Positions 2,670 through 52,855 are shown, numbered from the stretch's first letter. The stretch: DNA of 64,000 nucleotides from a virus (IMGVR_UViG_3300030380_006185:92274-156273), one strand, 5' to 3'. A program made the numbers and translations. The notes: a model not told the origin generated them from the sequence alone.

Positions 2670-2906
2670 TTATTTTATGATTCCGGCTCTCACCATCATT
2701 TTTTTTCTTTCAGCTAGTGCTTCTTCTCCACCCATTATAGCTTCAAAATCAATCATCCCTAACTCACCAGCAACTCTACTCAATTCAATCATATTATTTG
2801 CTACTTTACGGAGTTCTTCATCAGATGAAGCATCATCTTTAGCAAATTCTAGTACTCGAAGGAGTAAAGGGATTGATAATTCAACTGTAGTTTTTGGGTT
2901 TCTCAT
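2670..2906 (-). CDS. Small helical protein of unknown function
   Basis: The 78-residue protein is predicted mostly alpha-helical (ELSIPLLLRVLEFAKDDASS, VANNMIELSRVAGELG) and shows no known motif. Its ATG overlaps the stop of the upstream gene (TAATG), so the two are translationally coupled. A late-type motif precedes the pair, so it may be a virion or assembly protein. Confidence 0.6.
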   Translation of the reverse strand: MRNPKTTVELSIPLLLRVLEFAKDDASSDEELRKVANNMIELSRVAGELGMIDFEAIMGGEEALAERKKMMVRAGIIK

Positions 2907-3292
2907 TATGCAAATTTTGCTCTTACTGCAGCTCCTAAATCCGCATCATTAGAATGTTTTTTAATCATTTTTCTAACTTCTCCTCTAATAGCTTCTGCAC
3001 TAGCATCAATTCCTACTGCTTCTTCCATTGTATCATCTTCTTCATAGTATGATTCTTTTACATCATCTTCCTCATACATACCTTCTTTAACTTCTTTTTC
3101 CTCTTTTTCTTCTCCTTCATTCATAAAATGCTCAAAAGCCATTTCATAATCTGATTTTTCACGAGGTGGGATTTGGGTAATTGCTTCAACTCCAACGATT
3201 CCACCAGCCATGTAGTGTTCGTTTAAGTTTTCTTTTTCTTCATTAACAGGCACTCCTGCTAATTTTTGCATTCGATTTAATTCTTTTGACAT
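2906..3292 (-). CDS. Acidic late protein with propeptide-like N-terminus
   Basis: The 128-residue protein starts SKELNRMQKLAGVPVNEEKENLNE, with two potential (V/L)NE cleavage sites of the type used by T4-like prohead proteases. The middle is very acidic (EEKEEKEVKEG, EEDD repeats). The C-terminus is helical and basic (IRGEVRKMIKKH). It is preceded at 14 bases by an ATATTTATAA motif, as are structural genes. I infer a capsid core, scaffold-like or internal protein. No direct homolog was recognised. Confidence 0.6.
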   Translation of the reverse strand: MSKELNRMQKLAGVPVNEEKENLNEHYMAGGIVGVEAITQIPPREKSDYEMAFEHFMNEGEEKEEKEVKEGMYEEDDVKESYYEEDDTMEEAVGIDASAEAIRGEVRKMIKKHSNDADLGAAVRAKFA

Positions 3293-5360: not shown

Positions 5361-5389
5361 ATTATACAAAAACTTTTACCAATAGGCAA
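5361..5389 (-). promoter_or_regulatory. Candidate sigma70-like promoter for clamp-loader operon
   Basis: On the minus strand TTGCCT is followed after exactly 17 bases by TATAAT, 20 bases upstream of the gp44 ATG. The spacing is ideal for a sigma70 promoter, although a Bacteroidota host would normally use a different -7 element. It overlaps a hairpin that may be a terminator. Confidence 0.4.
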
Positions 5390-5394
5390 GTTTT
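5369..5394 (-). terminator. Candidate terminator of the propeptide gene cluster
   Basis: Minus-strand AAAACTTGCC-TATT-GGTAAAAGTTTT folds into a stem with a small bulge and is followed by T residues. It begins at the stop codon of the last gene in the cluster (5393). It overlaps the candidate promoter for gp44. Confidence 0.45.
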
Positions 5395-6058
5395 ATTTTT
5401 TAAAATATTGATTATAAGTTGTTTCTACAAATTCATCATAAACAGGATGAAACATATATTCATCGATTCCCCTTCTAAGGATATCATCAGTTGTTATAAG
5501 AAATTCTCTTGGGGTGTATGTACCAGCATCATCTCTTATCCATTGTTTAATGTCTTCTTCAGTAAAACCTCTATATGTAGCAATATCAACTTTTTTAAAT
5601 TTTATATAATCTTTTATATCCTTAACTATTTTTGATTGTTTTGAATATAGAAAACTTTTTAATTCTTCAGGAGTACCAAGTTTATTTTCATTAATTGCGC
5701 TATGTATTTCCTCTAAAGTATCTATTTCTAATTCACTTTCAAATCCATACCTATTAGAAAGTTTAGTTAAAATATTTTTAACTTTAATTTTATCTTTTCT
5801 ATTAACTAGTATTTTAAGATTTTTATCACTAATCCCATGATCATTTTCTACTGCAGCGTCAAAAGATTGAAGAAGGGATTCAACGTCATTTCTAAATTTT
5901 TTATATTTTTTTTCAAAATATGGTTCCCCTACTTTATCACTGTAGGTCATTAAATACAAGTGGACTAAATCATCTTTTGGTTTATAATCTATTGTACGAA
6001 GTTCTAATACCTTAGATATTTCCTCTTTGATAAGTTGTTTTAGTTGGGAATGTTTCAT
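5393..6058 (-). CDS. Putative internal/virion protein with capsid-targeting-like propeptide (type A)
   Basis: The 221-residue protein starts MKHSQLKQLIKEEISKVLE, the type A N-terminal peptide shared with four other genes in this cluster. The remainder is unrelated to the other members: mixed helical, charged, with RKDKIKVKNILTKLSNRYG and a C-terminal YRGFTEEDIKQWIRDDAG. The shared leader with an LxE-like end resembles the propeptides that target T4 internal proteins into the prohead core. The mature function is unknown. It is the last gene of the cluster driven from 10236-10245. Confidence 0.65.
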   Translation of the reverse strand: MKHSQLKQLIKEEISKVLELRTIDYKPKDDLVHLYLMTYSDKVGEPYFEKKYKKFRNDVESLLQSFDAAVENDHGISDKNLKILVNRKDKIKVKNILTKLSNRYGFESELEIDTLEEIHSAINENKLGTPEELKSFLYSKQSKIVKDIKDYIKFKKVDIATYRGFTEEDIKQWIRDDAGTYTPREFLITTDDILRRGIDEYMFHPVYDEFVETTYNQYFKK

Positions 6059-6060
6059 TT

Positions 6061-6672
6061 TTATCTTTTTGGAAGTCTTCTCTTTAAAAGTAACTTATAG
6101 TCATAATCAACCATTTTATCTAAACCTGAATGGAATCCACGATTTCCACCCTCACGGTAGAAAAAGAAATATAATTTATGTTTAGGTGAATAATAATATT
6201 CAGATGAAAGTGATGTTGACAATGGTGTTTTTTTATAATTTTGTTCTATAGCTTGTTTAAATTCATCACGTGTCATACCATCAGTAGCTACATAAAGTTG
6301 TGTATGACCTAATGCCCCACTTGAAGTTCCTTCAACGTATGCTTTTATTGCTATACCCTTTTCTTCTAGTTCTTTAGCTAAAGCAGAAGCATCGTTCCAT
6401 ACTTTACTATCAGTACGAACTTCATCAATTGGAAGAGAATTAACTTGAGCTTCTGCATCTCTTACCATTTTAAAGAATTTAGGTAAATCTTTTTTACTAA
6501 TTTTAAGGTATGCGTCTCCACCATATGAATCACTACCTATAATAAAATACAAGTTACCATCAACACCAAATTTTAAATTTGCTACACCCAACATCTTAGA
6601 TAAATGTTTACCTTCATTTAATACGCTACGTATTTCCTCTTTAATAAGTTTTTTTAGTTGTGAGTGTTTCAT
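6061..6672 (-). CDS. Putative internal protein with type A propeptide
   Basis: The 203-residue protein starts MKHSQLKKLIKEEIRSVLNE, with a potential LNE cleavage site at residues 18-20. The mature part is strand-rich (NLYFIIGSDSYGGDAYLKIS, AIKAYVEGTSSGALGHTQLY) with many aromatic residues toward the end (SSEYYYSPKHKLYFFFYREGG). No family recognised. It overlaps the upstream gene by 4 bases (ATGA type), indicating coupled translation. Confidence 0.65.
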   Translation of the reverse strand: MKHSQLKKLIKEEIRSVLNEGKHLSKMLGVANLKFGVDGNLYFIIGSDSYGGDAYLKISKKDLPKFFKMVRDAEAQVNSLPIDEVRTDSKVWNDASALAKELEEKGIAIKAYVEGTSSGALGHTQLYVATDGMTRDEFKQAIEQNYKKTPLSTSLSSEYYYSPKHKLYFFFYREGGNRGFHSGLDKMVDYDYKLLLKRRLPKR

Positions 6673-7001
6673 CTTATTTTATTTAAAATGCTGTTAAAAA
6701 TTTCTATCTCATCAGAAAAGAAATTATCTCCCTTATTTTGCATTTCTTCAACCTTCATTTCTAGAAAATAAATTAATTTTCTTCTCTCTATAGGAGTAAG
6801 CTCAAGCGATTCATTTAATAGCTTATTTTCAGCTAATTGTACTTTTTTATTATAATGTGATTTTAGAACCATATTTATAGCATCTCTAAACTTCCAAAAG
6901 GGAGTTGAATATACTAAAGTTCTAATTTTACCTGCTAAATCAATTGTTGAAGCATTAGATATTTCTTCTTTAATAAGTTTTTTTAGTTGTGAGTGTTTCA
7001 T
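6669..7001 (-). CDS. Chimeric protein carrying both propeptide types
   Basis: The 110-residue protein starts with the type A peptide MKHSQLKKLIKEEIS but also contains AENKLLNE at residues 57-64, the core of the type B peptide used by other genes in the cluster. The DNA of that internal piece (6811-6836) is identical over 26 bases to copies at 7672, 7915 and 8961. This looks like fusion of two cluster genes by recombination. The part after the internal site is helical (ERRKLIYFLEMKVEEM). Function unknown. Confidence 0.65.
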   Translation of the reverse strand: MKHSQLKKLIKEEISNASTIDLAGKIRTLVYSTPFWKFRDAINMVLKSHYNKKVQLAENKLLNESLELTPIERRKLIYFLEMKVEEMQNKGDNFFSDEIEIFNSILNKIR

Positions 7002-7483
7002 GATACGCTTTTTGTAATCTTCAGTTGTTTTAAATCTTTTAAATATTCATCTGTCATTACAAGAATTACTCCCATTTTGTAATGTGGTTGTTGAGAGGTA
7101 AATGAAAGTTCAGTTACTTTTGGGTTGAATCTAGGAGGTTTGTTATTGTAATATTGTATTTGATATACACCAAATTCTTTTCCTTCACCTTCTTTATCGG
7201 GGTGAGGGTCTTGTGGATAGTTCCCTTCAAATTGGTTATATTGAATATGTGAAAACATTGGAGATGTTGTTTTTTCAGGTGTCATCAAGTTCAATGTAGC
7301 TTCTTTCATACTACTAACTGCGTTTGGGAAGTATCGTTTAATAACTTCCATATCTTCAGCATCAGGTTTATTTCGTTCAACGTATTTTACAATTTTATCA
7401 CCTGAAAAATTTTTGTAGGTGGCTTCATTTAATGCGCTACGTATTTCCTCTTTGATGAGTTGTTTTAATTCGGAGTGTTTCAT
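6998..7483 (-). CDS. Putative internal protein with type A propeptide
   Basis: The 161-residue protein starts MKHSELKQLIKEEIRSALNE and then continues into a region without a recognised fold, rich in Asn, Pro and Tyr (YNQFEGNYPQDPHPDKEGEG, QIQYYNNKPPRF), ending in a strand-helix segment (MGVILVMTDEYLKDLKQL). Its stop overlaps the start of the next gene by 4 bases. Propeptide role is inferred from the shared leader. Confidence 0.65.
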   Translation of the reverse strand: MKHSELKQLIKEEIRSALNEATYKNFSGDKIVKYVERNKPDAEDMEVIKRYFPNAVSSMKEATLNLMTPEKTTSPMFSHIQYNQFEGNYPQDPHPDKEGEGKEFGVYQIQYYNNKPPRFNPKVTELSFTSQQPHYKMGVILVMTDEYLKDLKQLKITKSVS

Positions 7484-7484
7484 C

Positions 7485-7724
7485 TTATTTTTGTGAAAAT
7501 CGAAAATATTTTCTTATTGTATCCTTAATATCCAACTCATTATTTTTCCAGTATTTTTCATCAAAAGAATCATAATCATCACCAGGTTGTGCTTCTAACC
7601 CCTTTTCATATGCTACTTGAAAATGAATTTTAAGAGCATTTGTTAATGAGGTATCTGGGAATTGGGTATCTTCATTTAATAGCTTATTTTCAGCTAAATA
7701 TTTTTTTAAGTCAAAGTTTTTCAT
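7485..7724 (-). CDS. Small protein with type B propeptide
   Basis: The 79-residue protein starts MKNFDLKKYLAENKLLNE, the type B leader with two potential L-x-E cleavage sites (LAE and LNE). The remaining 61 residues are charged and helical (LKIHFQVAYEKGLEAQPG, DIKDTIRKYFRF). No known family. Confidence 0.65.
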   Translation of the reverse strand: MKNFDLKKYLAENKLLNEDTQFPDTSLTNALKIHFQVAYEKGLEAQPGDDYDSFDEKYWKNNELDIKDTIRKYFRFSQK

Positions 7725-7730
7725 TTTATT

Positions 7731-7967
7731 TTATATATTGTTACTAATTTCTTTTAATTTTGAAATAATTGCTTTAATTTCTTTACTATAAAGTTGTATA
7801 TTTTCTTTTTCATCAAACATGTATTCTCTAACATTTGAATTTAAAATGTTATTTAACTGTTCAATAGATCGATCAAATGCATCTTTAAAGGTATTAGGTT
7901 TATTATAAAAGTTTTCATTTAATAGCTTATTTTCAGCTAAATATTTTTTTAAATTAAAGTTTTCCAT
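7731..7967 (-). CDS. Small protein with type B propeptide
   Basis: From ATG 7967 the 78-residue protein starts MENFNLKKYLAENKLLNE. The rest is helical (TFKDAFDRSIEQLNNILNS, SKEIKAIISKLKEISNNI). The ATG is preferred to an in-frame TTG three codons upstream because it matches the other leaders. Function unknown; likely a packaged internal protein by analogy. Confidence 0.65.
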   Translation of the reverse strand: MENFNLKKYLAENKLLNENFYNKPNTFKDAFDRSIEQLNNILNSNVREYMFDEKENIQLYSKEIKAIISKLKEISNNI

Positions 7968-7968
7968 T

Positions 7969-8520
7969 TTAATCAAATTTATAATATTTCTTTTTGTTCC
8001 TTATAGTACCTAATAATATGTTATTTATTACGTCTGTAACTGTTTTTAAACTTCTATCTAATTCCTCTTCAGATTGATCATTTTTTACTGCAGTCATAAA
8101 AACATCATCTAATGCTTTTACTATGGATTTTCTTAGTGGATTATATAATTCTACTGATACTCCAGATACATAATTTCGGTGCATTGGATTAGCTTCAATC
8201 TCATTCACTTCATTTAGTTCTCCTTCACTACGTAAATGTCCTACTACATATTCTTTATATCTTTCAATTATATCTAATATAGTAAAATTGTCTGGAAATT
8301 GGTTTGCTGTAGTTCTTTGTAACATTTCTTTATCAGTGTATCTGTTGGAATATTCAGGGTGTGCCTTGTCAAACCCATCCATTGAACCAAACTGAGCCTT
8401 CCATGATTTTCTTTTATATGCTTCTGATCCTTTATTTTCGGGGTCTTGGTTAGGATCATATTCATTTAAAGCATTATGTACTTCTTCTTTAATAAGTTGT
8501 TTTAGTTCTGATGGTTTCAT
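7969..8520 (-). CDS. Putative internal protein with type A propeptide
   Basis: The 183-residue protein starts MKPSELKQLIKEEVHNALNE, followed by a polar region and helical segments (FTILDIIERYKEYVVGHLRS, LRKSIVKALDDVFMTAVKND, LDRSLKTVTDVINNILL). Its ATG overlaps by one base the stop of the upstream gene. No known family. Confidence 0.65.
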   Translation of the reverse strand: MKPSELKQLIKEEVHNALNEYDPNQDPENKGSEAYKRKSWKAQFGSMDGFDKAHPEYSNRYTDKEMLQRTTANQFPDNFTILDIIERYKEYVVGHLRSEGELNEVNEIEANPMHRNYVSGVSVELYNPLRKSIVKALDDVFMTAVKNDQSEEELDRSLKTVTDVINNILLGTIRNKKKYYKFD

Positions 8521-8726
8521 TAATAGTATCCTCCTCTATATTTTAAAGTTTTTGCTATTGGCTCTAGTTTTGATGCTAAAGCAACTTTACCATCTTTAGA
8601 TAAAATATCACCTAAATCTTTTACTGCTTTAACAATTCCATCAATTTTTTCTAATTCTTCATCAAAATTTTCTTCTTTCACTAGCTTATTTTCAGCTAAG
8701 TATTTTTTTAAATTAAATTCTTTCAT
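8520..8726 (-). CDS. Small protein with type B propeptide
   Basis: The 68-residue protein starts MKEFNLKKYLAENKLVKEEN, a slightly diverged type B leader in which LNE is replaced by VKE. The rest (DGIVKAVKDLGDILSKDGKV, LASKLEPIAKTLKYRGG) is helical and amphipathic. Function unknown. Confidence 0.65.
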   Translation of the reverse strand: MKEFNLKKYLAENKLVKEENFDEELEKIDGIVKAVKDLGDILSKDGKVALASKLEPIAKTLKYRGGYY

Positions 8727-8737
8727 TTTAATTAAAT

Positions 8738-9013
8738 TTACATTTTATATATTGTTGGCAAGTCATTTTTTGATACAGTATCACCTAATTCAATTACCCA
8801 ATAAGCACTTTCTGGTAGACCCATTTCTTTTCCAATAACCGCTCGTATTTCTTCTAAAGTTGCTTCTCTGGTAAGTTCAAGAAAATCTCCATAGGATTCA
8901 TAACGATCTATACTATATTTTAGTACTCTGTATATTCCAGGTTTGAAGATTTCTGTTTCCTCATTTAATAGCTTATTTTCAGCTAAGTATTTTTTTAAAT
9001 TAAATTCTTTCAT
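8738..9013 (-). CDS. Small protein with type B propeptide
   Basis: The 91-residue protein starts MKEFNLKKYLAENKLLNEET. The following 70 residues have an alternating strand-helix pattern (GIYRVLKYSIDRYESYGDFL, LTREATLEEIRAVIG). The start overlaps the stop of the upstream gene by 4 bases. Function unknown. Confidence 0.65.
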   Translation of the reverse strand: MKEFNLKKYLAENKLLNEETEIFKPGIYRVLKYSIDRYESYGDFLELTREATLEEIRAVIGKEMGLPESAYWVIELGDTVSKNDLPTIYKM

Positions 9014-9963
9014 AATCCTGCTCTTTTTTGCATTAAATATAGATCTAAATCAAATTCTATACCTTCTTTTAATGACGCCTTTTTAATTAATAGTTTTTGT
9101 CTTTGATCAGGTGAAATACCTGTTACAACTAGTTTATATTTTCTTTTACCATCTACCTCAACTGGTTCAGTTTTATAATTTGCAGATGGAACATCTCCAA
9201 TTTCTTTTTGAAATTGTTTTCTAATTTTTTCTACTTTATCTAAAGAATCAGCCATAGCAGAAAGTGGTGGAACAACTTTTTTTTCAGGTTTTTTAATTAC
9301 CTCACCTGCATCGTCTGTTTTTTCAACATCAACAATTTCATACTCTAAACCTGAGTTATCCATTATTGTTTTCATTACTTTTTGAAGGTATGGTTTTGGT
9401 TTGTAAGGGCTGTTTTCTAATGGGAAAATAATTTTACCATCTTTTACATTAAAATGAACATCTTTTTCTAATCTACCAGCATACTTTTTTAAGTTAGCTG
9501 GTGTTTTTAATGGGAAATAATTTTTACCATATCTACCAATAAAATCTTTTGGGAGTTGTTTTCCCTCTAATGTATATAAATAATCTTCTATTTCACCTTC
9601 ATTTCCTGCAGTTTGCCATTCTTCAAATCCTGCTTTTGCTTGCTCCATTGCTTTTTCATAATCTTCGGGAGCTCGTTTTTTGATATCAATAAGTTTAAAC
9701 CCTTTTGCATCATTAGATCTTTCTGTCCAATCATTCCAAGCTGCTCTTGTTTTTTGAGCAGGAACAGAAGGTCCAAATGCTTTTTGTATAGCTTTTGGGT
9801 CACGTAGGTTTTGAGCATAGATACCATAGTTGTCTATATTATCTAAAGCGTCTAATGCAGCTGGTATATCTGTAGGTTGGATAGCAAGGTCGTATTGAAC
9901 CTTAAGTTGCTTCATTCCATCTTCTTCACCCTCTACCTCTCTTAAAATATCTGTTAATTTCAT
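9010..9963 (-). CDS. Large member of the putative internal-protein cluster
   Basis: The 317-residue protein starts MKLTDILREVEGEEDGMKQL, a different short leader that still ends in an acidic stretch. The body is Lys/Glu/Pro-rich with an Ala-rich helical part (IPAALDALDNIDNYGIY, AMEQAKAGFEEW) and a basic strand-rich C-terminus (KRKYKLVVTGISPDQRQKLL). It lies between two type B genes with 4-base overlaps on both sides, so it is expressed with them. It could be a larger core or packaged protein. No family recognised. Confidence 0.6.
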   Translation of the reverse strand: MKLTDILREVEGEEDGMKQLKVQYDLAIQPTDIPAALDALDNIDNYGIYAQNLRDPKAIQKAFGPSVPAQKTRAAWNDWTERSNDAKGFKLIDIKKRAPEDYEKAMEQAKAGFEEWQTAGNEGEIEDYLYTLEGKQLPKDFIGRYGKNYFPLKTPANLKKYAGRLEKDVHFNVKDGKIIFPLENSPYKPKPYLQKVMKTIMDNSGLEYEIVDVEKTDDAGEVIKKPEKKVVPPLSAMADSLDKVEKIRKQFQKEIGDVPSANYKTEPVEVDGKRKYKLVVTGISPDQRQKLLIKKASLKEGIEFDLDLYLMQKRAGL

Positions 9964-10223
9964 ATTTGGGCAATAGTTGGGTGTGGCCTATAATCAGGGT
10001 ATTTTTCTTTAAAATGAGTTTTTAAATGATGAGCTATTGCTAAATATGCGTTTTCTGCTTTTTCTGCTGTACGAATATCGTCTGATTTAAGAGCAAGAAT
10101 AGCATTTGAAAATTTTGCTTGAGCTATTGCTAAGTTTTCTGCTGCTCTACTTTCAAATTGGCCTATATACTGTTCCTCAAGTTTATTTTCAGCTAAATAT
10201 TTTTTTAGATTAAAATTGTCCAT
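9960..10223 (-). CDS. First gene of propeptide cluster, type B leader
   Basis: The 87-residue protein starts MDNFNLKKYLAENKLEEQYI, then is helical and Ala-rich (AAENLAIAQAKFSNAILAL, AENAYLAIAHHLKTHFKE). It is the promoter-proximal gene: a late-type motif lies 12 bases upstream, just after the terminator of the chaperonin operon. This placement suggests late expression of the whole 10223-5393 cluster. Confidence 0.65.
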   Translation of the reverse strand: MDNFNLKKYLAENKLEEQYIGQFESRAAENLAIAQAKFSNAILALKSDDIRTAEKAENAYLAIAHHLKTHFKEKYPDYRPHPTIAQI

Positions 10224-10235
10224 TTGATTATTTTG

Positions 10236-10245
10236 TTATAAATAT
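10236..10245 (-). promoter_or_regulatory. Late-type motif ATATTTATAA before propeptide cluster
   Basis: Coding-strand ATATTTATAA ends 12 bases before the ATG at 10223, immediately after the terminator at 10254-10277. The order terminator then motif fits a new transcription unit starting here. Confidence 0.6.
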
Positions 10246-10253
10246 ATAAAAAA

Positions 10254-10277
10254 GGGGACCAATTACATTGGATCCCC
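10254..10277 (-). terminator. Rho-independent terminator of chaperonin operon
   Basis: Minus-strand GGGGATCCAAT-GTA-ATTGGTCCCC forms a strong GC-clamped stem with one bulged base, followed by TTTTTT. The stop codon of the 10263-10526 gene lies inside the hairpin. Confidence 0.8.
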
Positions 10278-19055: not shown

Positions 19056-19484
19056 TTAGTTTTTTCCAACCATTACTTTATAATCTTGTATAGGTTTTGA
19101 ATCTTTATTTTCCCAAGGATAAACAATCCAATCATTACTTTCAAATTTACAAGCATAGTAACGAGGTTCATACTTTGAAGTATGAGGTTTGTAATGGAGA
19201 ACAGCAGTGTAATATTCATACAAATTTTGGAGAGTTTCTCCACTATCACAAATATCATCTACAAATAATGTTTCATTATGAGGATGTCTTTCAGATAAAG
19301 AATGATAAGGTATTCTCATTTTATGAGATAACATAATAGCAGGAGTAAGCCCTCCTCTAGGTATTCCACATATATGAGTAAATTCTTTACCTGATTCTAA
19401 AATGTTTTTATGTAAGGTATCAACTAGTTCTTCTACCTCTTTCCAACTTATGTATATTTTTTTTATTTTATCTTTTTCCACCAT
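19056..19484 (-). CDS. Phosphoribosyltransferase
   Basis: The 142-residue protein has the PRPP-binding loop ETLFVDDICDSGETLQNL, GIPRGGLTPAIMLSHKM near the N-terminus and a C-terminal WIVYPWE, as in xanthine-guanine type purine phosphoribosyltransferases. It would join a base to PRPP. Being inside the preQ0 cluster, it might salvage a purine or a deazapurine base, which is inference. Confidence 0.8.
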   Translation of the reverse strand: MVEKDKIKKIYISWKEVEELVDTLHKNILESGKEFTHICGIPRGGLTPAIMLSHKMRIPYHSLSERHPHNETLFVDDICDSGETLQNLYEYYTAVLHYKPHTSKYEPRYYACKFESNDWIVYPWENKDSKPIQDYKVMVGKN

Positions 19485-19851
19485 AATATTTTATTCCGTG
19501 ACCTTCAGCTATTAATACTTCTTGTAATGTAGGAGAAGGGGGTTCATGTTTAAGTGATTGATCTTTATAAAAATCTATTAATTGAATTTCTCCTAAACAT
19601 CTACCAAATTTACCTACTCCAAAAGATCTTAAAATAAACCTATTTTCATTTTTTTTCAAAATTTCTATAACTCTATTTTTTGCAGCTAAACCTTTTTTCT
19701 TTTCTTCTAAATCTCTTGTACGGGATTCAGGGGCATCCATACCATGTAATCTAATTCTTATTTTTTTAAAAGTACTAAACCCTAAATCTACCATAGCGTC
19801 AATAGTATCACCATCAACTACTTTTATTACTGTTGCATTATACTCAAACAT
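19468..19851 (-). CDS. Staphylococcal nuclease-like (thermonuclease) domain protein
   Basis: The 127-residue protein is a single SNase domain: VIKVVDGDTIDAMVDLGF, IRIRLHGMDAPESR and FGVGKFGRCLGEIQL carry the Asp, Arg and Glu residues of the family active site. No signal peptide is seen, so it probably acts in the cytoplasm, perhaps on host nucleic acid. It overlaps the phosphoribosyltransferase gene by 17 bases. Confidence 0.8.
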   Translation of the reverse strand: MFEYNATVIKVVDGDTIDAMVDLGFSTFKKIRIRLHGMDAPESRTRDLEEKKKGLAAKNRVIEILKKNENRFILRSFGVGKFGRCLGEIQLIDFYKDQSLKHEPPSPTLQEVLIAEGHGIKYYGGKR

Positions 19852-19862
19852 GCCTTATATTT

Positions 19863-20648
19863 TTACACTCCTCTTTCTGTGTCAAATGCTATTATATGGT
19901 CTCTACCTGTTAAATTATAGCCATATTCAGCACATAAATCAAATACTAAAGGATACATTTTAATTAATTCTTTTCTTGTATCACCCGCAGGCATTATAAA
20001 TGTTTTATGTTTTGGTATTTCCATTTTAATTCTAAAGTCCTCTATTTCTTTTAAACACTCATCAGTACCATCCCAAACTGGTTTATAATGATAATCAGTG
20101 TGGTAGTCTAATGTTTTTCTAATAGCACTATAATTTAGTCTTAATTTATTATGTTGCTTAATCATTCTTTCATCTGTTTCTTTTCCATTAGGTGTTAAAG
20201 CACCTAATTTAGGAACAGAATTAGAAAATTTAGGAGATAGAGAAATCAAACCTAATGGAAAATCAGTTTTAAGAAAATGAGAACCTTCAGTTTCAATAGT
20301 AATAAGAATGCCTCTTTGATTTGCAAAATGAGTTAACTCATTTACTAATTTAGGATGCATTGTAGGAGAACCACCTGTTAACATCATTTCTTTTACATGG
20401 GGGTTTTCATCATATATTTTAATAATATCATTAAAATTAAATGTTCCTTTTTCTGGGTGGATGCTTGTGTACCAAGAATCACACCACCCTCCTTCTTCTC
20501 CAAAGTAACACCTGTGAGTGCACCCAGTTGTTCTAACTGCAATGGTAGGTCTTCCAAATCGGCTACCTTCAGATTGAACACACCTATATAATTCTAGTAT
20601 AGGTAATCTTTTATCAAAATCTTTTATTCTTCCTAATGGTTTTTCCAT
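19863..20648 (-). CDS. queE: 7-carboxy-7-deazaguanine synthase QueE (radical SAM)
   Basis: The 261-residue radical SAM protein has VQSEGSRFGRPTIAVRTTGC at the start, Cys residues in GCTHRCYFGEEGGWCDSWY, and MLTGGSPTMH for SAM binding. The cluster spacing is CX3CX8C, with a six-residue insertion before the third Cys compared with the usual CX3CX2C. QueE converts carboxytetrahydropterin to 7-carboxy-7-deazaguanine. It lies between the SNase and queD genes. Confidence 0.88.
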   Translation of the reverse strand: MEKPLGRIKDFDKRLPILELYRCVQSEGSRFGRPTIAVRTTGCTHRCYFGEEGGWCDSWYTSIHPEKGTFNFNDIIKIYDENPHVKEMMLTGGSPTMHPKLVNELTHFANQRGILITIETEGSHFLKTDFPLGLISLSPKFSNSVPKLGALTPNGKETDERMIKQHNKLRLNYSAIRKTLDYHTDYHYKPVWDGTDECLKEIEDFRIKMEIPKHKTFIMPAGDTRKELIKMYPLVFDLCAEYGYNLTGRDHIIAFDTERGV

Positions 20649-20710
20649 ACTATTTTATTAAAATATATTTAATTTTTATGTTGTTATAAGTAACTGTTGA
20701 TATCCAATAA

Positions 20711-21172
20711 TTATTCTCCATAAATTGCTGTATTTTTTCCATGTTCCATAAATTCAACTTGTACTACTCTTACTCGTCCATCTGTTTCTTCCTCAACAAA
20801 CATATTAAGTTTATTGTAGATATACTCAGCAAATTTTTCTGCACCAGTAGCATCTATTACTCTTAATTGGATTAAATTTTGTGCATCCATCATTCTAAAT
20901 GAATCCAATTCGGGGTCGTCGTTTGCAGCAATTAATGTGTGATCAAACATGTAATCCATCCAGTCTTTAGGGGACATACCATCTATTTGGGTTTTAGCTC
21001 GTTTCATTCCTCCAAAGTCCCAAACCCAATTTCTATGGTCAAGTAACCCTTCAAAAGTTACTTTAAATGATACTCCATACCCATGTAAATAACTACAATG
21101 TGTTTCTTTTGCTCTCCATTGACGGAATACTGTACTAAATCCGTCAAATATTTTAGTTGATTGATGTTTCAT
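20711..21172 (-). CDS. queD: 6-carboxytetrahydropterin synthase QueD
   Basis: The 153-residue protein belongs to the 6-pyruvoyl-tetrahydropterin synthase family: ETHCSYLHGYGVSFKV, WVWDFGGMKRAK, FDHTLIAANDDP and VEFMEHGKNTA. In standard QueD the zinc ligands are in AAH and HGH; here the equivalents read TVF and HGY, so two of three His appear replaced. It would turn dihydroneopterin triphosphate into carboxytetrahydropterin. Its stop region abuts the queC start-side gene with a one-base overlap. Confidence 0.82.
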   Translation of the reverse strand: MKHQSTKIFDGFSTVFRQWRAKETHCSYLHGYGVSFKVTFEGLLDHRNWVWDFGGMKRAKTQIDGMSPKDWMDYMFDHTLIAANDDPELDSFRMMDAQNLIQLRVIDATGAEKFAEYIYNKLNMFVEEETDGRVRVVQVEFMEHGKNTAIYGE

Positions 21173-22038
21173 TATTTTATATTTAATTGTTCTTTTTCAT
21201 ACTCTGAAAGTACTTGTTCAACATATATTCTTGCTGTTTCCCATTTTACAGGGCCTGTTTCATCAGCATATCTTACAGGATCAGGTCTTCCCAATTTAAT
21301 AAATGCTTCTACTCGTTCAACTGAACTAGCTGATTTGTAATCTGAAAACCAATTATCACCTGAAGTAGATATAATTTGGATTGGTTTGTAACTTGTATTT
21401 GTACGAGAATAAACTTCATCAAAATCAAAACCTAAATATTTACATAGTTTTTCTCCATCTTGTAAGATAGTAAATTTATCACCTTCAAGATAAGGTGTAA
21501 AGTAACCTACTTTATCAGCATCCCAATTGCCTATTCTAAAAGCTGCATCGTCTGCATCTCTAAACTCTTGTCTGCAATCTGGGTAAATAGCATGATCACC
21601 TGCATGGATACCAAGTGCAATATCACAACCTTCACCTGTTTGGTTTGCTCTAGATAATGCTACTGCTTGTGTAATAGAGGCAAATATTTTATTTCTATTA
21701 GGTACAACAGTTGCTTTCATATTATCTTCAGCATAATGACCTTCGGGTACTTCATCTCCACCATCCACTAAAGCAGAATCAAGTAAATCAACTAAACCAT
21801 CTAGCTTAATTACTCTATATTTAACACCAGGATGTGAATCCCCATGTACTCCAATATTAATCATTACCTCATTATTAATATAATCTACTAATGATTGAGC
21901 GCGTTCTAACTCAACTCTATGTTTTTGTCCATAATCAAATGAAATAGCTGTTACCGTGTCATATTCTTTAAGACAACGTAACAACAATGTACTGGAATCC
22001 ATTCCTCCAGATAGGGAAACTACAACATGTTTTTCCAT
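21172..22038 (-). CDS. queC: 7-cyano-7-deazaguanine synthase QueC without zinc Cys
   Basis: The 288-residue PP-loop ATPase has SLSGGMDSS at residues 8-16, then AISFDYGQKHRVEL, VVPNRNKIFASI and LGIHAGDHAIYPDCR, all QueC signatures. The C-terminal region normally carrying four zinc-binding Cys (SCYxG...CGxCxxC) reads RTNTSYKPIQ and SDYKSASSVERVEAF, so all four are lost while the flanking RVEAFIKLGRPDP is kept. It makes preQ0 from carboxydeazaguanine and ammonia. It may use another way to stabilise this domain. Confidence 0.88.
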   Translation of the reverse strand: MEKHVVVSLSGGMDSSTLLLRCLKEYDTVTAISFDYGQKHRVELERAQSLVDYINNEVMINIGVHGDSHPGVKYRVIKLDGLVDLLDSALVDGGDEVPEGHYAEDNMKATVVPNRNKIFASITQAVALSRANQTGEGCDIALGIHAGDHAIYPDCRQEFRDADDAAFRIGNWDADKVGYFTPYLEGDKFTILQDGEKLCKYLGFDFDEVYSRTNTSYKPIQIISTSGDNWFSDYKSASSVERVEAFIKLGRPDPVRYADETGPVKWETARIYVEQVLSEYEKEQLNIK

Positions 22039-48372: not shown

Positions 48373-48744
48373 TTAAATCTGTGAGATATTATCCTCTCCT
48401 ACAAAGAAAGCTTTAACTCCTGGTACTTTTCTAATATCCTGGGCTATTTCCATCATTTTTTCTCTGTTAAATCCACCTTTTGTAATCCAAGGGTATCCAT
48501 CTACTTTAACACTTAATATAGCTTTAAATTTATTTAAATTTTGATCAGCATAAGCAAGTGGTTCTGTTGATGAAATAACAGTAATTCCAGGAATTGCTCT
48601 AATATCAGAATATATTTCTTTTTGAGGGCGTTCTTTAATGTCAGTAATTAAAGTACCTACCATTTTGTATTTATCTTGATAGTCCTCATTTATAGCTTTT
48701 TTTAGCTCTTCTTTTACTAACGTACGTAAACTATTATATTTCAT
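48373..48744 (-). CDS. Propeptide-type small protein among tail genes
   Basis: From ATG 48744 (123 residues) the protein starts MKYNSLRTLVKEELKKAINE, clearly like the type A leaders of the 5.4-10.2 kb cluster, with an INE end. The rest is ferredoxin-like alpha-beta (GTLITDIKERPQKEIYSDIR, PGITVISSTEPLAY, FKAILSVKVDGYP). A late-type motif lies 13 bases upstream. It is a distant member of the same family placed in the tail region. An upstream TTG is not used. Confidence 0.65.
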   Translation of the reverse strand: MKYNSLRTLVKEELKKAINEDYQDKYKMVGTLITDIKERPQKEIYSDIRAIPGITVISSTEPLAYADQNLNKFKAILSVKVDGYPWITKGGFNREKMMEIAQDIRKVPGVKAFFVGEDNISQI

Positions 48745-48757
48745 TCGTGTGTATATG

Positions 48758-48767
48758 TTATAAATAT
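48758..48767 (-). promoter_or_regulatory. Late-type motif ATATTTATAA
   Basis: The motif lies 13 bases upstream of the 48373-48744 gene. Confidence 0.55.
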
Positions 48768-48799
48768 AATAAAATCTAATTAGATAACCAAGGAAAAAT

Positions 48800-48828
48800 A
48801 AAAGCTCCACGTATTAAGTAGAGCTTTT
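48800..48828 (-). terminator. Hairpin terminator after tail tube gene
   Basis: Minus-strand AAAAGCTC and GAGCTTTT pair around a 13-base interior, followed by ATTTTT. It lies just after the stop of the tail tube gene. Confidence 0.55.
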
Positions 48829-49387: not shown

Positions 49388-51082
49388 TTATGATGGGAAT
49401 TCTGCACCAGTAGGCATTAAAATAAAATCTACTGATATAAATTCTGCTGTTCTTGTAGGTTGAATATAAACCTGTCCGATTAATTGGTTTCTATCAATTA
49501 CATCAGGACCATTATTTGAATCATCCATTACTACTTTAAAGGCATATAAACCTTGTTTTTGTTGTACTGTTTCTAAATATGGGGTTACTCTAGCTAAGAA
49601 ACTATTTCTTGTTGTTGCTGTGTTTTGTTCAAATACTATAGTATCTGAGATTTGTCTAATGTAATTTTTTAATGAGATTAGTAAGCGTCTTACATTTACT
49701 CTATCTAATGCTGAAGCGTCTTTTTGTAGTGTTTTTTGTCCAAATACAACAACACCTTCTCTTGGTAATGTTGCTAATGGGTTAATATTTGCTTCATATA
49801 AACTATCTCTATTTCCTTGAGTTAATTTAAATTGAGTGCGTAATACACCAGATAAACCACCTCTATTAATACCTGCTGGAGCAAACCATGGGGCAGCTTT
49901 TTTATCGTTATTTGCATAAACACCTGGTATTAGTGTTGAAGCTGGTACCCATACATATCTTCCTGTTCCTGGATCTATAAGACTAACCCATGGGAAATAA
50001 GTTGCGGCATATGAAGTATCTCTACCTGATGCTTCTGAAATTGCAGTATTAATTCCTGAAGTGTGGTTTGTTGAATCGTATACTAGAATAGCATCTCCTC
50101 TTTCTTGTGTATTTGTAATTAAAGTTGATATTAAAGATGAATGTGATTCATCAGTTAATCCTGGAGCTGATATTACATTAAATTTATATGATTCAATATT
50201 GTTTAATAATGCTATAGCATTAGTATAGTTTGCAGCTACTAAACCTTGTGTTTGAGTTGAAACATCACCATAAAAATTAGCACCCGCACCTAAAGCACCA
50301 GTAGCAGCACCGAATGAACCACTTCCGATAACAGGAATAGATCCAGTAAATTCAGATTTCGCTATACCATTATTATCTAAATAGTTTGGTGTTAAATTTG
50401 AAATTGATTTTACCCTTACATAACGAGAAGCATTAGGGTAAGAACCTGAAATTTCTAATTGTTCTGTAGAGGGGTTATAGTTTAATTTTTGGTCTCCTAT
50501 TACTTTAGAAATGAATCTTTCAGAATAAGGGTCAAGACTAACATTATTCCAAACTTCAAGGTTAACTTTTTTATTTTCTTTATCATTTCCTTGTCTAACA
50601 ACTAAAGTAAAATTACCTGAAGAGGTATTGGCACTTGCAATTTCCCATCTTACATTATCTTTTGAACCAGAAGGTAAAATACCACCTGCTCCTTCAGTTG
50701 AAGTACTATTCATAATTTCTCCCTCAGAAATAGTTTCTAATATTAATGAATTAGTAGAATCTCCATTTTCAATAATAGAGGATGTTGCAGAAGTGTATGA
50801 ACCACTTACTACTCTAGTTACTAATAATGAATCTCCACCATTTTGGAAATAACTATATGCTGAAATTGAAGTAAAATATGAATAAACATTACTACCACTT
50901 TCTAATGTGTCACCAAAACGATTTACATAATCTGAATATGAAGTAACTAGTGTGGGTATTTCTACAGGACCTTTAACAGCAGGGCCTATAATTGCTGCAC
51001 CTGCTTGGACAGGTTGACCTACTAAAAAAGTATTGTCTATTTCATTTAATGTTACTCCAGGTGAAATTGAAAAATTTGCCAT
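49388..51082 (-). CDS. 18: Tail sheath protein, copy 1 (T4 gp18-like)
   Basis: The 564-residue protein has the sheath signature: ISPGVTLNEIDN at the start, AGAAIIGPAVKGPVEIPTLV, TRVVSGSYTSATSSI and, at the C-terminus, VVFGQKTLQKDASALDRVNV, RRLLISLKNYI and a tube-binding VYIQPTRTAEFISVDFILMP. It contracts to drive the tube through the envelope. It is a tandem paralog of the next gene. Confidence 0.92.
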   Translation of the reverse strand: MANFSISPGVTLNEIDNTFLVGQPVQAGAAIIGPAVKGPVEIPTLVTSYSDYVNRFGDTLESGSNVYSYFTSISAYSYFQNGGDSLLVTRVVSGSYTSATSSIIENGDSTNSLILETISEGEIMNSTSTEGAGGILPSGSKDNVRWEIASANTSSGNFTLVVRQGNDKENKKVNLEVWNNVSLDPYSERFISKVIGDQKLNYNPSTEQLEISGSYPNASRYVRVKSISNLTPNYLDNNGIAKSEFTGSIPVIGSGSFGAATGALGAGANFYGDVSTQTQGLVAANYTNAIALLNNIESYKFNVISAPGLTDESHSSLISTLITNTQERGDAILVYDSTNHTSGINTAISEASGRDTSYAATYFPWVSLIDPGTGRYVWVPASTLIPGVYANNDKKAAPWFAPAGINRGGLSGVLRTQFKLTQGNRDSLYEANINPLATLPREGVVVFGQKTLQKDASALDRVNVRRLLISLKNYIRQISDTIVFEQNTATTRNSFLARVTPYLETVQQKQGLYAFKVVMDDSNNGPDVIDRNQLIGQVYIQPTRTAEFISVDFILMPTGAEFPS

Positions 51083-51095
51083 TTTCTATTTTTTA

Positions 51096-51105
51096 TTATA
51101 AATAT
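51096..51105 (-). promoter_or_regulatory. Late-type motif ATATTTATAA
   Basis: The motif lies 13 bases upstream of sheath copy 1, so the two sheath genes may have separate transcripts. Confidence 0.55.
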
Positions 51106-51130
51106 TAATTATCTTTTTAAAATACTATTA

Positions 51131-52855
51131 CTAAGCAGGAAAAGTTGCTCCTGTTGGTAATACATTAAAGTCTAGTACTATAAATTCAACTGATCTTGTT
51201 GGTTTTAAATATATTTGTCCAATTAATTGATTATTATCTATCACGTCAGGTGGATTATTTGATTCATCCATTATTACTCTATAATCAATTAAACCTTGTC
51301 TGTTTTGAACATCTGCTAAATAAGGGTTTACTTGAGATAAAAAGTTATTTCTAGTATTAACATCATTTTGTTCAAATACTAAAGTATCTGCTACTTGGGA
51401 AATAAAATCTTTTAATTCAATTAATAAACGTCTTACATTTACACGATCTAAAGCACTTCTTCTTTTTTGTAATGTTTTTTGTCCAAATACAACAACTCCA
51501 GTATTAGGAAAAGTTGAGATTGCATTTACTTTATTTTCATAAAGTGTATCTCTGTTTCCTTGGGTTAAATTTCTTTCTGCTCTAACTACTGTTGGAAGTA
51601 GTCCCCTTGTTTGTCCTGCAGGAGCAAACCATGGTTCAGCAATTCTATCATTAAACGCATATACTCCTGGTATCATTGTTGAAGCAGGAACCCAAATTTG
51701 AGTACCTAAATTAGGGTCAATAGTTTTAGTCCAAGGCCAATAAGTAGCAGCATACGAAGTATTATAATTCGCTGCATTTGTAGCTACTGGGGTTATATTT
51801 GATCCATATCCTGCAATATCAATTATAGCTATTGCATCTCCTCTTTCTTCAATTGCTGTAATTAGTTGAGTAGCTACAGGGGAATGGGTAGAGAAATTAG
51901 TTCCATCAGCTATTATACCAGGCATTGAAATCATATTATATCTAAATGCTTCTCTATTAGAAAGAAGTGAAATAGATTCTGTATAAGCAGAAGCAGGTAA
52001 ACCTTGTGTGTTACTATTATTTATATTTTCATAATAATTTCCTGATGATCCTGGAAGGTTAGTACCTGTAGCAGCTCCAAATGAACCACTTCCTAAAGAA
52101 GGTAAAGAACCTGTAAATTCAGGTTTTGCATCACCATCATTATCAAAATATTTTGGTGTTAATGTATTTACTTGTTTTACTCTAACATATCTAGATTGGT
52201 TTGGAAAGTCACCTTGAAGGTTAAGAAAATATTCTCCATTATCTTCTGAAACTGTTTGGGTTTGGTTTCCTATTACTTTTTCTACATAATTAGATGAATA
52301 TGGGTCTAGTGATAAATTACTCCATGTTTCTAATCTTGAAGGTGAAAGTGTTGTATCATCACCTCTTCTAATTACTAATTCAAATGTACCTTCATTTATA
52401 TTCCTATTTGTAATTTGCCATCTAATATTATCATCAGTACCATTTACTAATGAACCGTCAGCATTTTCTGATCCAGTGCTATTCATGATAATACCTTCTG
52501 TAAGTGTTTCTAACACAATAGATGCTGAAGTATTTGCATTTTCAATAATAGATGATGTTGCAGGAGTAAATGATCCACTTACTACACGTGTAACTAACAT
52601 TGAAGTACCACCATTCTGGAAGTAGTTATATATTGAAATAGAGGTAAAATATGAATATGTTTGACTACCACTTTCAAAAGTAGATCCAAACTTACTTTGA
52701 TAATCACTATATGTTGTACATATTGTTGGGATACCAACAGGTCCTTTAACTGTAGGTCCTATTATAGCGGCTCCTGCTTGGATTGGGGTTGATGTTATAA
52801 AAGATTGATCATTTTCAATTGCTAATACCCCGGGTGATACAATAGTTTCTGCCAT
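51131..52855 (-). CDS. 18: Tail sheath protein, copy 2 (T4 gp18-like)
   Basis: The 574-residue protein is a close paralog of the preceding sheath gene over its full length (AGAAIIGPTVKGPVGIPTIC, TRVVSGSFTPATSSIIENAN, VVFGQKTLQKRRSALDRVNV, RLLIELKDFISQVADTLVFE). Differences cluster in the middle domain. Two sheath subunits may form a mixed or specialised sheath, or be switched in expression. Which one builds the tail is unknown. Confidence 0.92.
   Translation of the reverse strand: MAETIVSPGVLAIENDQSFITSTPIQAGAAIIGPTVKGPVGIPTICTTYSDYQSKFGSTFESGSQTYSYFTSISIYNYFQNGGTSMLVTRVVSGSFTPATSSIIENANTSASIVLETLTEGIIMNSTGSENADGSLVNGTDDNIRWQITNRNINEGTFELVIRRGDDTTLSPSRLETWSNLSLDPYSSNYVEKVIGNQTQTVSEDNGEYFLNLQGDFPNQSRYVRVKQVNTLTPKYFDNDGDAKPEFTGSLPSLGSGSFGAATGTNLPGSSGNYYENINNSNTQGLPASAYTESISLLSNREAFRYNMISMPGIIADGTNFSTHSPVATQLITAIEERGDAIAIIDIAGYGSNITPVATNAANYNTSYAATYWPWTKTIDPNLGTQIWVPASTMIPGVYAFNDRIAEPWFAPAGQTRGLLPTVVRAERNLTQGNRDTLYENKVNAISTFPNTGVVVFGQKTLQKRRSALDRVNVRRLLIELKDFISQVADTLVFEQNDVNTRNNFLSQVNPYLADVQNRQGLIDYRVIMDESNNPPDVIDNNQLIGQIYLKPTRSVEFIVLDFNVLPTGATFPA

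Follow-up and report, generated by a model that had tools for sequence, protein, structure and literature searches.

Putative capsid cargo genes with interchangeable terminal peptides form a hypervariable island in a T4-like virus

In phage T4, internal proteins reach the core by means of N-terminal propeptides of 10-19 residues, which are cleaved after L/I-X-E (PMC9026906). Internal proteins of T4 have been identified by this signal, at least ten being reported, and Ip1-3, which inhibit type IV restriction enzymes (PMC12373910; see also PMC9391042), have only the leader in common (PMC12373910). T4 Alt is packaged alongside the internal proteins and is processed by gp21 at both ends (PMC9026906), and in phiKZ-type phages and SPN3US a gp21 homologue trims many head proteins C-terminal to glutamate (PMC5694885, PMC9026906). 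Here we analysed a 64,000-nucleotide window of viral DNA, corresponding to bases 92274-156273 of the 156,273-base record IMGVR_UViG_3300030380_006185, in which positions 5393-10223 hold an island of eleven consecutive minus-strand open reading frames (ORFs) with little space in between. Gene calls are mechanical, and L-numbers denote loci in related contigs.

Five genes of the island begin with a peptide that we call T1 (consensus MKHSxLKxLIKEEI..LNE) and five with a second peptide, T2 (consensus M..FNLKKYLAENKLLNE, or F-x4-Y-L-A-E), and the remaining gene, 9010-9963, bears a third tag, T3, at its C-terminus (Table 1). The first-pass annotation had already recognized shared N-terminal peptides on ten of the eleven genes and complete divergence thereafter; indeed, the post-tag remainders are mutually unrelated and show no Pfam or PHROG match at any strength. 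The eleventh gene, which it left out of the tagged set, is tagged as well, and two further tagged genes lie outside the island (2906-3292 and 2670-2906). Its description of the peptides as ending in LNE or containing LAE does not hold for every T1 peptide: 5393-6058 has VLE in place of LNE, and 6669-7001 has no LNE at the usual place and carries a remnant of T2, LAENKLLNE, at a more internal position. In the ORF L098:1993-2202, T1 adjoins a body that, compared by eye, is similar to that of 6669-7001.

The T1 and T2 peptides are conserved as protein. A degenerate codon pattern for the T1 core LKxLIKEEI has four matches in the window, compared with 0.00 expected from dinucleotide shuffles. Among island paralogues, the ratio of nonsynonymous to synonymous polymorphism (pN/pS) is 0.15 for T1 and 0.11 for T2, the differences being mostly synonymous, indicating that the amino acids are what is kept and that recent DNA duplication is not the origin of the similarity. 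At a fixed place of T1, L/I-x-E is present in 65/131 peptides, against a per-residue background of 1.4%, and IKE within T1 and LAE within T2 are further fits to the same motif.

T3 is RMQKLAGIIK, a peptide conserved at the C-terminus of the gp22-like scaffold of this phage and found at the N-terminus of other proteins. The scaffold, C1:10240-11628, identified from gene order and relatives, ends ...PIVE/SNDVFARMQKLAGIIK (slash, putative cut site). T3 is C-terminal in at least 76 distinct proteins, most of which are such scaffolds, and N-terminal in at least 27 others. Among the matches listed, N-terminal T3 is followed by L/I/V-x-E in 26/27 and C-terminal T3 is preceded by L/I-x-E in 63/76. In a first sample, with a background of ~18-19%, the site was on the body side of N-terminal T3 in 23/23, and L/I-x-E preceded C-terminal T3 in 8/9 scaffolds, 10/12 members of the family of the 317-amino-acid protein (9010-9963) and 7/7 members of the family of the 78-amino-acid protein (2670-2906), counts that are not independent because the scaffolds and family members are related. 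The two members of the 317-amino-acid family that lack the site also lack the T3 tag. A site on the body side at either end is as expected of a removable propeptide. Both kinds of terminus can meet in one protein: the 285-amino-acid product of L220:9121-9978 starts with a T1-like peptide and ends in a T3 tag.

Homologous bodies are found with T1, T2 or T3, indicating that the tags are interchangeable. Specifically, the body of 7485-7724 (T2) recurs with T1 in L009, L026 (T2) matches L051 (T1) with 72% identity over 174 amino acids, L014 (T2) matches L100 (T1), and L172 (T3) matches L026 (T2; E 2.5e-22). Furthermore, one membrane-protein-like family occurs with all three tags: T1 (L010:6071-6655 and L074:402-989), T3 (L267:949-1578; 60-62% identity, E about 1e-78) and T2 (L014:1148-1726; E 4e-9). 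This family looks membrane-spanning and is a candidate injected membrane protein. Only alignment-checked cases are cited; a first list of swaps, made with a loose pattern, contained false positives, e.g. the baseplate protein L078 and L148/L077 (probably low complexity), and was rejected. Tags that replace one another should share one job, and since T3 is the scaffold's own, that job is expected to be with the scaffold.

The island is hypervariable. It is flanked on one side by GroEL and one small gene and on the other by the gp44 clamp loader. Across about a dozen related contigs, the called genes within these same flanks all carry T1, T2 or T3, with a single exception, and the islands hold two to eleven genes of differing content. 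That exception, an untagged frame at L008:7937-8134, overlaps the adjoining genes and is likely to be spurious; in L010, a false start upstream conceals one T2 tag, and the automatic calls missed one T1 gene. Homologues of the 9960-10223 product hold the lead position of the island in related contigs, and the 317-amino-acid protein is the sole member conserved across all islands. A fold search with the AlphaFold2 model of the latter (predicted template modelling score 0.42) gave no significant or trustworthy match.

Pattern scans found more than 120 loci with such peptides among the matches listed, and at least 261 tagged ORFs fall into at least 160 body clusters, a number that depends on the BLAST thresholds and includes some loose T1 matches. 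The sole cultured close relative found is Flavobacterium phage immuto (vB_FspM_immuto; host Flavobacterium sp. LMO8). Twelve of its genes were flagged, two of them by a less strict short-leader rule, and nine of the twelve are at 102-119 kb, immediately ahead of the terminase, portal, protease, scaffold and capsid genes; tagged proteins are encoded, for example, at 102294-104354, 111675-112139, 113188-113946 and 117631-118931. An S77 protease is present in 16/27 records with such peptides and in 7/8 records of at least 99 kb. A tblastn search of named phages with a 20-residue consensus peptide was uninformative, as the query is too short and even immuto was missed.

The arrangement is reminiscent of T4 IPI, IPII and IPIII, in that a short N-terminal peptide, with L/I-x-E at its end (not in every protein), is common to otherwise unrelated small proteins, the loci are variable with different genes in related phages, and the genome encodes a gp21-type protease. 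T2 resembles the T4 capsid-targeting sequence MKTYQEFIAE (Y-x2-F-I-A-E), a likeness seen by eye and no more than a resemblance, and comparison by eye with T4 records found no homology of T1 or T3 to that sequence. Unlike T4, which has one targeting peptide, the phages here have three unrelated classes, the tags also occur at C-termini, one of them is the scaffold's own terminus, and the bodies form at least 160 clusters. Putative trimming at glutamate by a gp21-like protease, here read from sequence, is shared with the ejection proteins of phiKZ-type phages and SPN3US; however, several of the propeptides there are longer than 100 residues, and they do not form a common tag (PMC5694885).

We consider it likely that the island consists of virion cargo genes, whose terminal tags dock the products into the prohead core and are cut off by the protease before the cargo is injected with the DNA. 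Each protein would bear its address at a terminus, T1 or T2 at the N-terminus or T3 at either end, and this tag would dock it into a core built from the gp22-like scaffold, whose own C-terminus is T3. Once the shell is assembled, the gp21-type protease would sever tag from body after L/I-x-E. The cargo, now free within the head, would then enter the next cell along with the DNA. The bodies may turn over fast between related phages because the cargo acts on host functions, probably defences. Docking, cleavage, packaging, injection and cargo function, as well as the anti-defence role, are steps that we infer. A capsid-cargo interpretation had been proposed in the first-pass annotation, and it is supported, in that everything testable in silico agrees with it. 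We also lean, if only slightly, towards a broader proposal, in which a large T4-like clade uses a general virion-cargo address code made up of three interchangeable terminal tags, one derived from the scaffold C-terminus and usable at either end, and each removed by the prohead protease.

Several observations weigh against the cargo reading. T1 and T2 are linked to the scaffold solely through interchange with T3, not directly; two T1 peptides of the window have no terminal site under strict L/I-x-E; and, as noted above, the T3 site counts come from related proteins. Pfam, PHROG and PADLOC searches of the cluster and of 140 tagged proteins returned almost nothing, the Pfam and PADLOC scans of the 140 giving weak, scattered matches and no clear anti-defence family, and a literature search on immuto virion proteomics or on these peptides found none. 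In addition, T1-like starts are found on proteins encoded amid the tail genes (window 48373-48810 and C1:48790-49137). T1 may therefore not be head-specific, and the destination could be broader.

This last point leads to an alternative in which the tags are uncleaved docking peptides for virion assembly generally (tail, baseplate and head) and the tagged proteins are minor structural or chaperone-like components that are not injected. T1-like N-termini beside the tail tube, baseplate hub and baseplate genes, in immuto (81525-81944) as well as at the two loci just given, would fit this alternative, as would C-terminal T3 on several proteins besides the scaffold. We nevertheless regard it as unlikely, given that L/I-x-E remains next to the body whichever terminus T3 occupies, that close relatives have hypervariable bodies, a pattern more fitting for accessory cargo than for structural proteins, and that the conserved baseplate-region proteins match T1 more weakly (KEAVKEAV, not KEEI). 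The window gene 48373-48810 itself starts with a T1-like peptide (MKYNSLRTLVKEELKKAINE), lies between the tail tube gene and a baseplate-hub-like gene, and has TATTTATAAC upstream of an internal ATG.

The tags might instead direct proteins elsewhere in the infected cell, to the membrane, to the chaperonin encoded by the neighbouring gene or to the replication site. The position of the island between GroEL and gp44, and T1 reading as a charged amphipathic helix, would be consistent with this, but the peptides have no hydrophobic core or lipobox of export signals, many loci with tagged genes have no GroEL, T3 is a peptide of the scaffold, and the upstream motif is common to virion genes, making such a destination very improbable. 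Least credible is that the common 5' ends serve recombination or translation, as conserved DNA through which cargo genes are exchanged, and that the peptide itself has no role: island gene content does turn over with joins at the tag end, but conservation is at the protein rather than the DNA level (pN/pS 0.11-0.15), and common 5' DNA would account neither for the exchange of three distinct peptides nor for a T3 tag that can stand at either end.

The machinery that the cargo reading calls for is encoded in the genome. A prohead protease gene, which the first-pass annotation had suggested looking for, was found and is of the gp21 type (PF03420 E 3.7e-26; T4 gp21 structure 5jbl E 1.4e-15), and the putative tag sites fit its motif. 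The head module comprises portal (Portal_T4 E 5e-67), terminase (Terminase_6N E 2e-12), protease, scaffold and gp23-type capsid protein (E 6e-28) genes in T4-like order, as in immuto. In particular, the protease N-terminus MNKELLIE/T matches MNEPQLLIE/T of T4 gp21, and LVTE/A of the capsid protein is aligned with FLTE/A of T4 gp23. In a related contig, L002:14124-14555, at the gp68 position, contains KLKE/MSATNQGGASFTPG, which closely resembles LVTE/ASATNQGGGTFSVG, the sequence around the putative cut site of the capsid protein, L002:8558-10213. In another record (G019, the record of L058), a prohead protease match at C1:31008-31436 has three in-frame TGA codons; this phage may read TGA as an amino acid.

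The late-type motif noted earlier in front of the cluster is also present, TATTTATAAC lying 10 bases before the start of 9960-10223; read on the coding strand, it corresponds to the T4 late motif TATAAATA in reverse complement. A late promoter in the T4 orientation (TATAAATA) was rejected, the motif here being TATTTATAA on the coding strand. Of the motif TATTTATAA[TCA]A, the coding strand has 16 copies and the opposite strand one; 13 copies lie 6-22 bases before a start codon. The genes behind it include those for the head-tail adaptor, tail tube and two tail sheaths, others, and three tagged genes (C1:28065, window 2906-3292 and window 9960-10223), and the same motif precedes the island lead genes of seven related contigs (L009, L011, L013, L016, L021, L022 and L023). 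It is a putative late promoter. A sigma-70-like promoter precedes gp44, so gp44 need not depend on the promoter of the island.

Table 1. Tagged genes of the window and signals flanking the island (slash, putative cut site)
Feature	Position	Strand	Details
Junction before island	10224..10262	-	Late-type motif TATTTATAAC beside intrinsic-terminator-like stem GGGGATCCAATGTAATTGGTCCCC-TTTTTT; stem begins in the end of the upstream gene
Island lead gene	9960..10223	-	87 amino acids; T2 tag (MDNFNLKKYLAE/NKLEE/Q...); TATTTATAAC 10 bases before ATG
317-amino-acid protein	9010..9963	-	N-terminus MKLTDILREVE, begins MKLTDILREVEGEEDG; C-terminal T3 tag LKE/GIEFDLDLYLMQKRAGL, ends DLYLMQKRAGL
91-amino-acid putative cargo	8738..9013	-	T2 tag ...YLAENKLLNE
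68-amino-acid putative cargo	8520..8726	-	T2 tag ...YLAENKLVKE
183-amino-acid putative cargo	7969..8520	-	T1 tag MKPSELKQLIKEEVHNALNE; homologue in L008
81-amino-acid putative cargo	7731..7976	-	T2 tag; true start likely internal ATG, MENFNLKKYLAENKLLNE
79-amino-acid putative cargo	7485..7724	-	T2 tag; same body with T1 is L009:5695-6207, join at LNE
161-amino-acid putative cargo	6998..7483	-	T1 tag MKHSELKQLIKEEIRSALNE
110-amino-acid putative cargo	6669..7001	-	T1 tag, later T2 remnant (QLAENKLLNE) directly before body
203-amino-acid putative cargo	6061..6672	-	T1 tag MKHSQLKKLIKEEIRSVLNE
221-amino-acid putative cargo	5393..6058	-	T1 tag MKHSQLKQLIKEEISKVLE
Predicted sigma-70-like promoter before gp44	5361..5389	-	TTGCCT-17-TATAAT; consensus match only
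Second small tagged locus, 128-amino-acid protein	2906..3292	-	N-terminal T3 tag MSKELNRMQKLAGVPVNE/; own TATTTATAAT motif 12 bases before start
78-amino-acid protein	2670..2906	-	C-terminal T3 tag ...LAE/RKKMMVRAGIIK

T4 Alt is an ADP-ribosyltransferase, and a T1-tagged family encoded outside the window, in other contigs (L038, L039, L119 and L093), weakly resembles such enzymes. The family matches Pfam Tox-ART-HYD1 at E 6e-4, below the cut-off, and its model (predicted local distance difference test score 67.5) gave Foldseek matches to KptA/Tpt1 and DarT with marginal E-values; the likeness is to KptA/DarT rather than to Alt.

Identifying the proteins that a phage injects normally takes virion proteomics. 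Should the tags prove to be cargo addresses, such proteins could be listed from sequence for many uncultured phages, the tags alone identifying a phage's injected arsenal and providing a ready collection of candidate host-takeover and anti-defence proteins of no known family. A route of recruitment is also suggested, in which a gene that gains a tag becomes cargo, and the scaffold-derived T3 would offer a concrete handle on the entry of internal proteins into the prohead.

Genes for QueC, PTPS (QueD-like), a radical S-adenosylmethionine protein and a phosphoribosyltransferase lie at window 19056-22038, and the immuto annotation includes DpdA and QueE, which suggests 7-deazaguanine DNA modification. 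If the phage DNA carries 7-deazaguanines, one might speculate that restriction of modified DNA is a natural target of the cargo. Finally, window 49388-52855 contains a tandem pair of tail sheath genes (PHROG 23, E 8e-75 and 4e-75), and each of the two has a TATTTATAA motif of its own.

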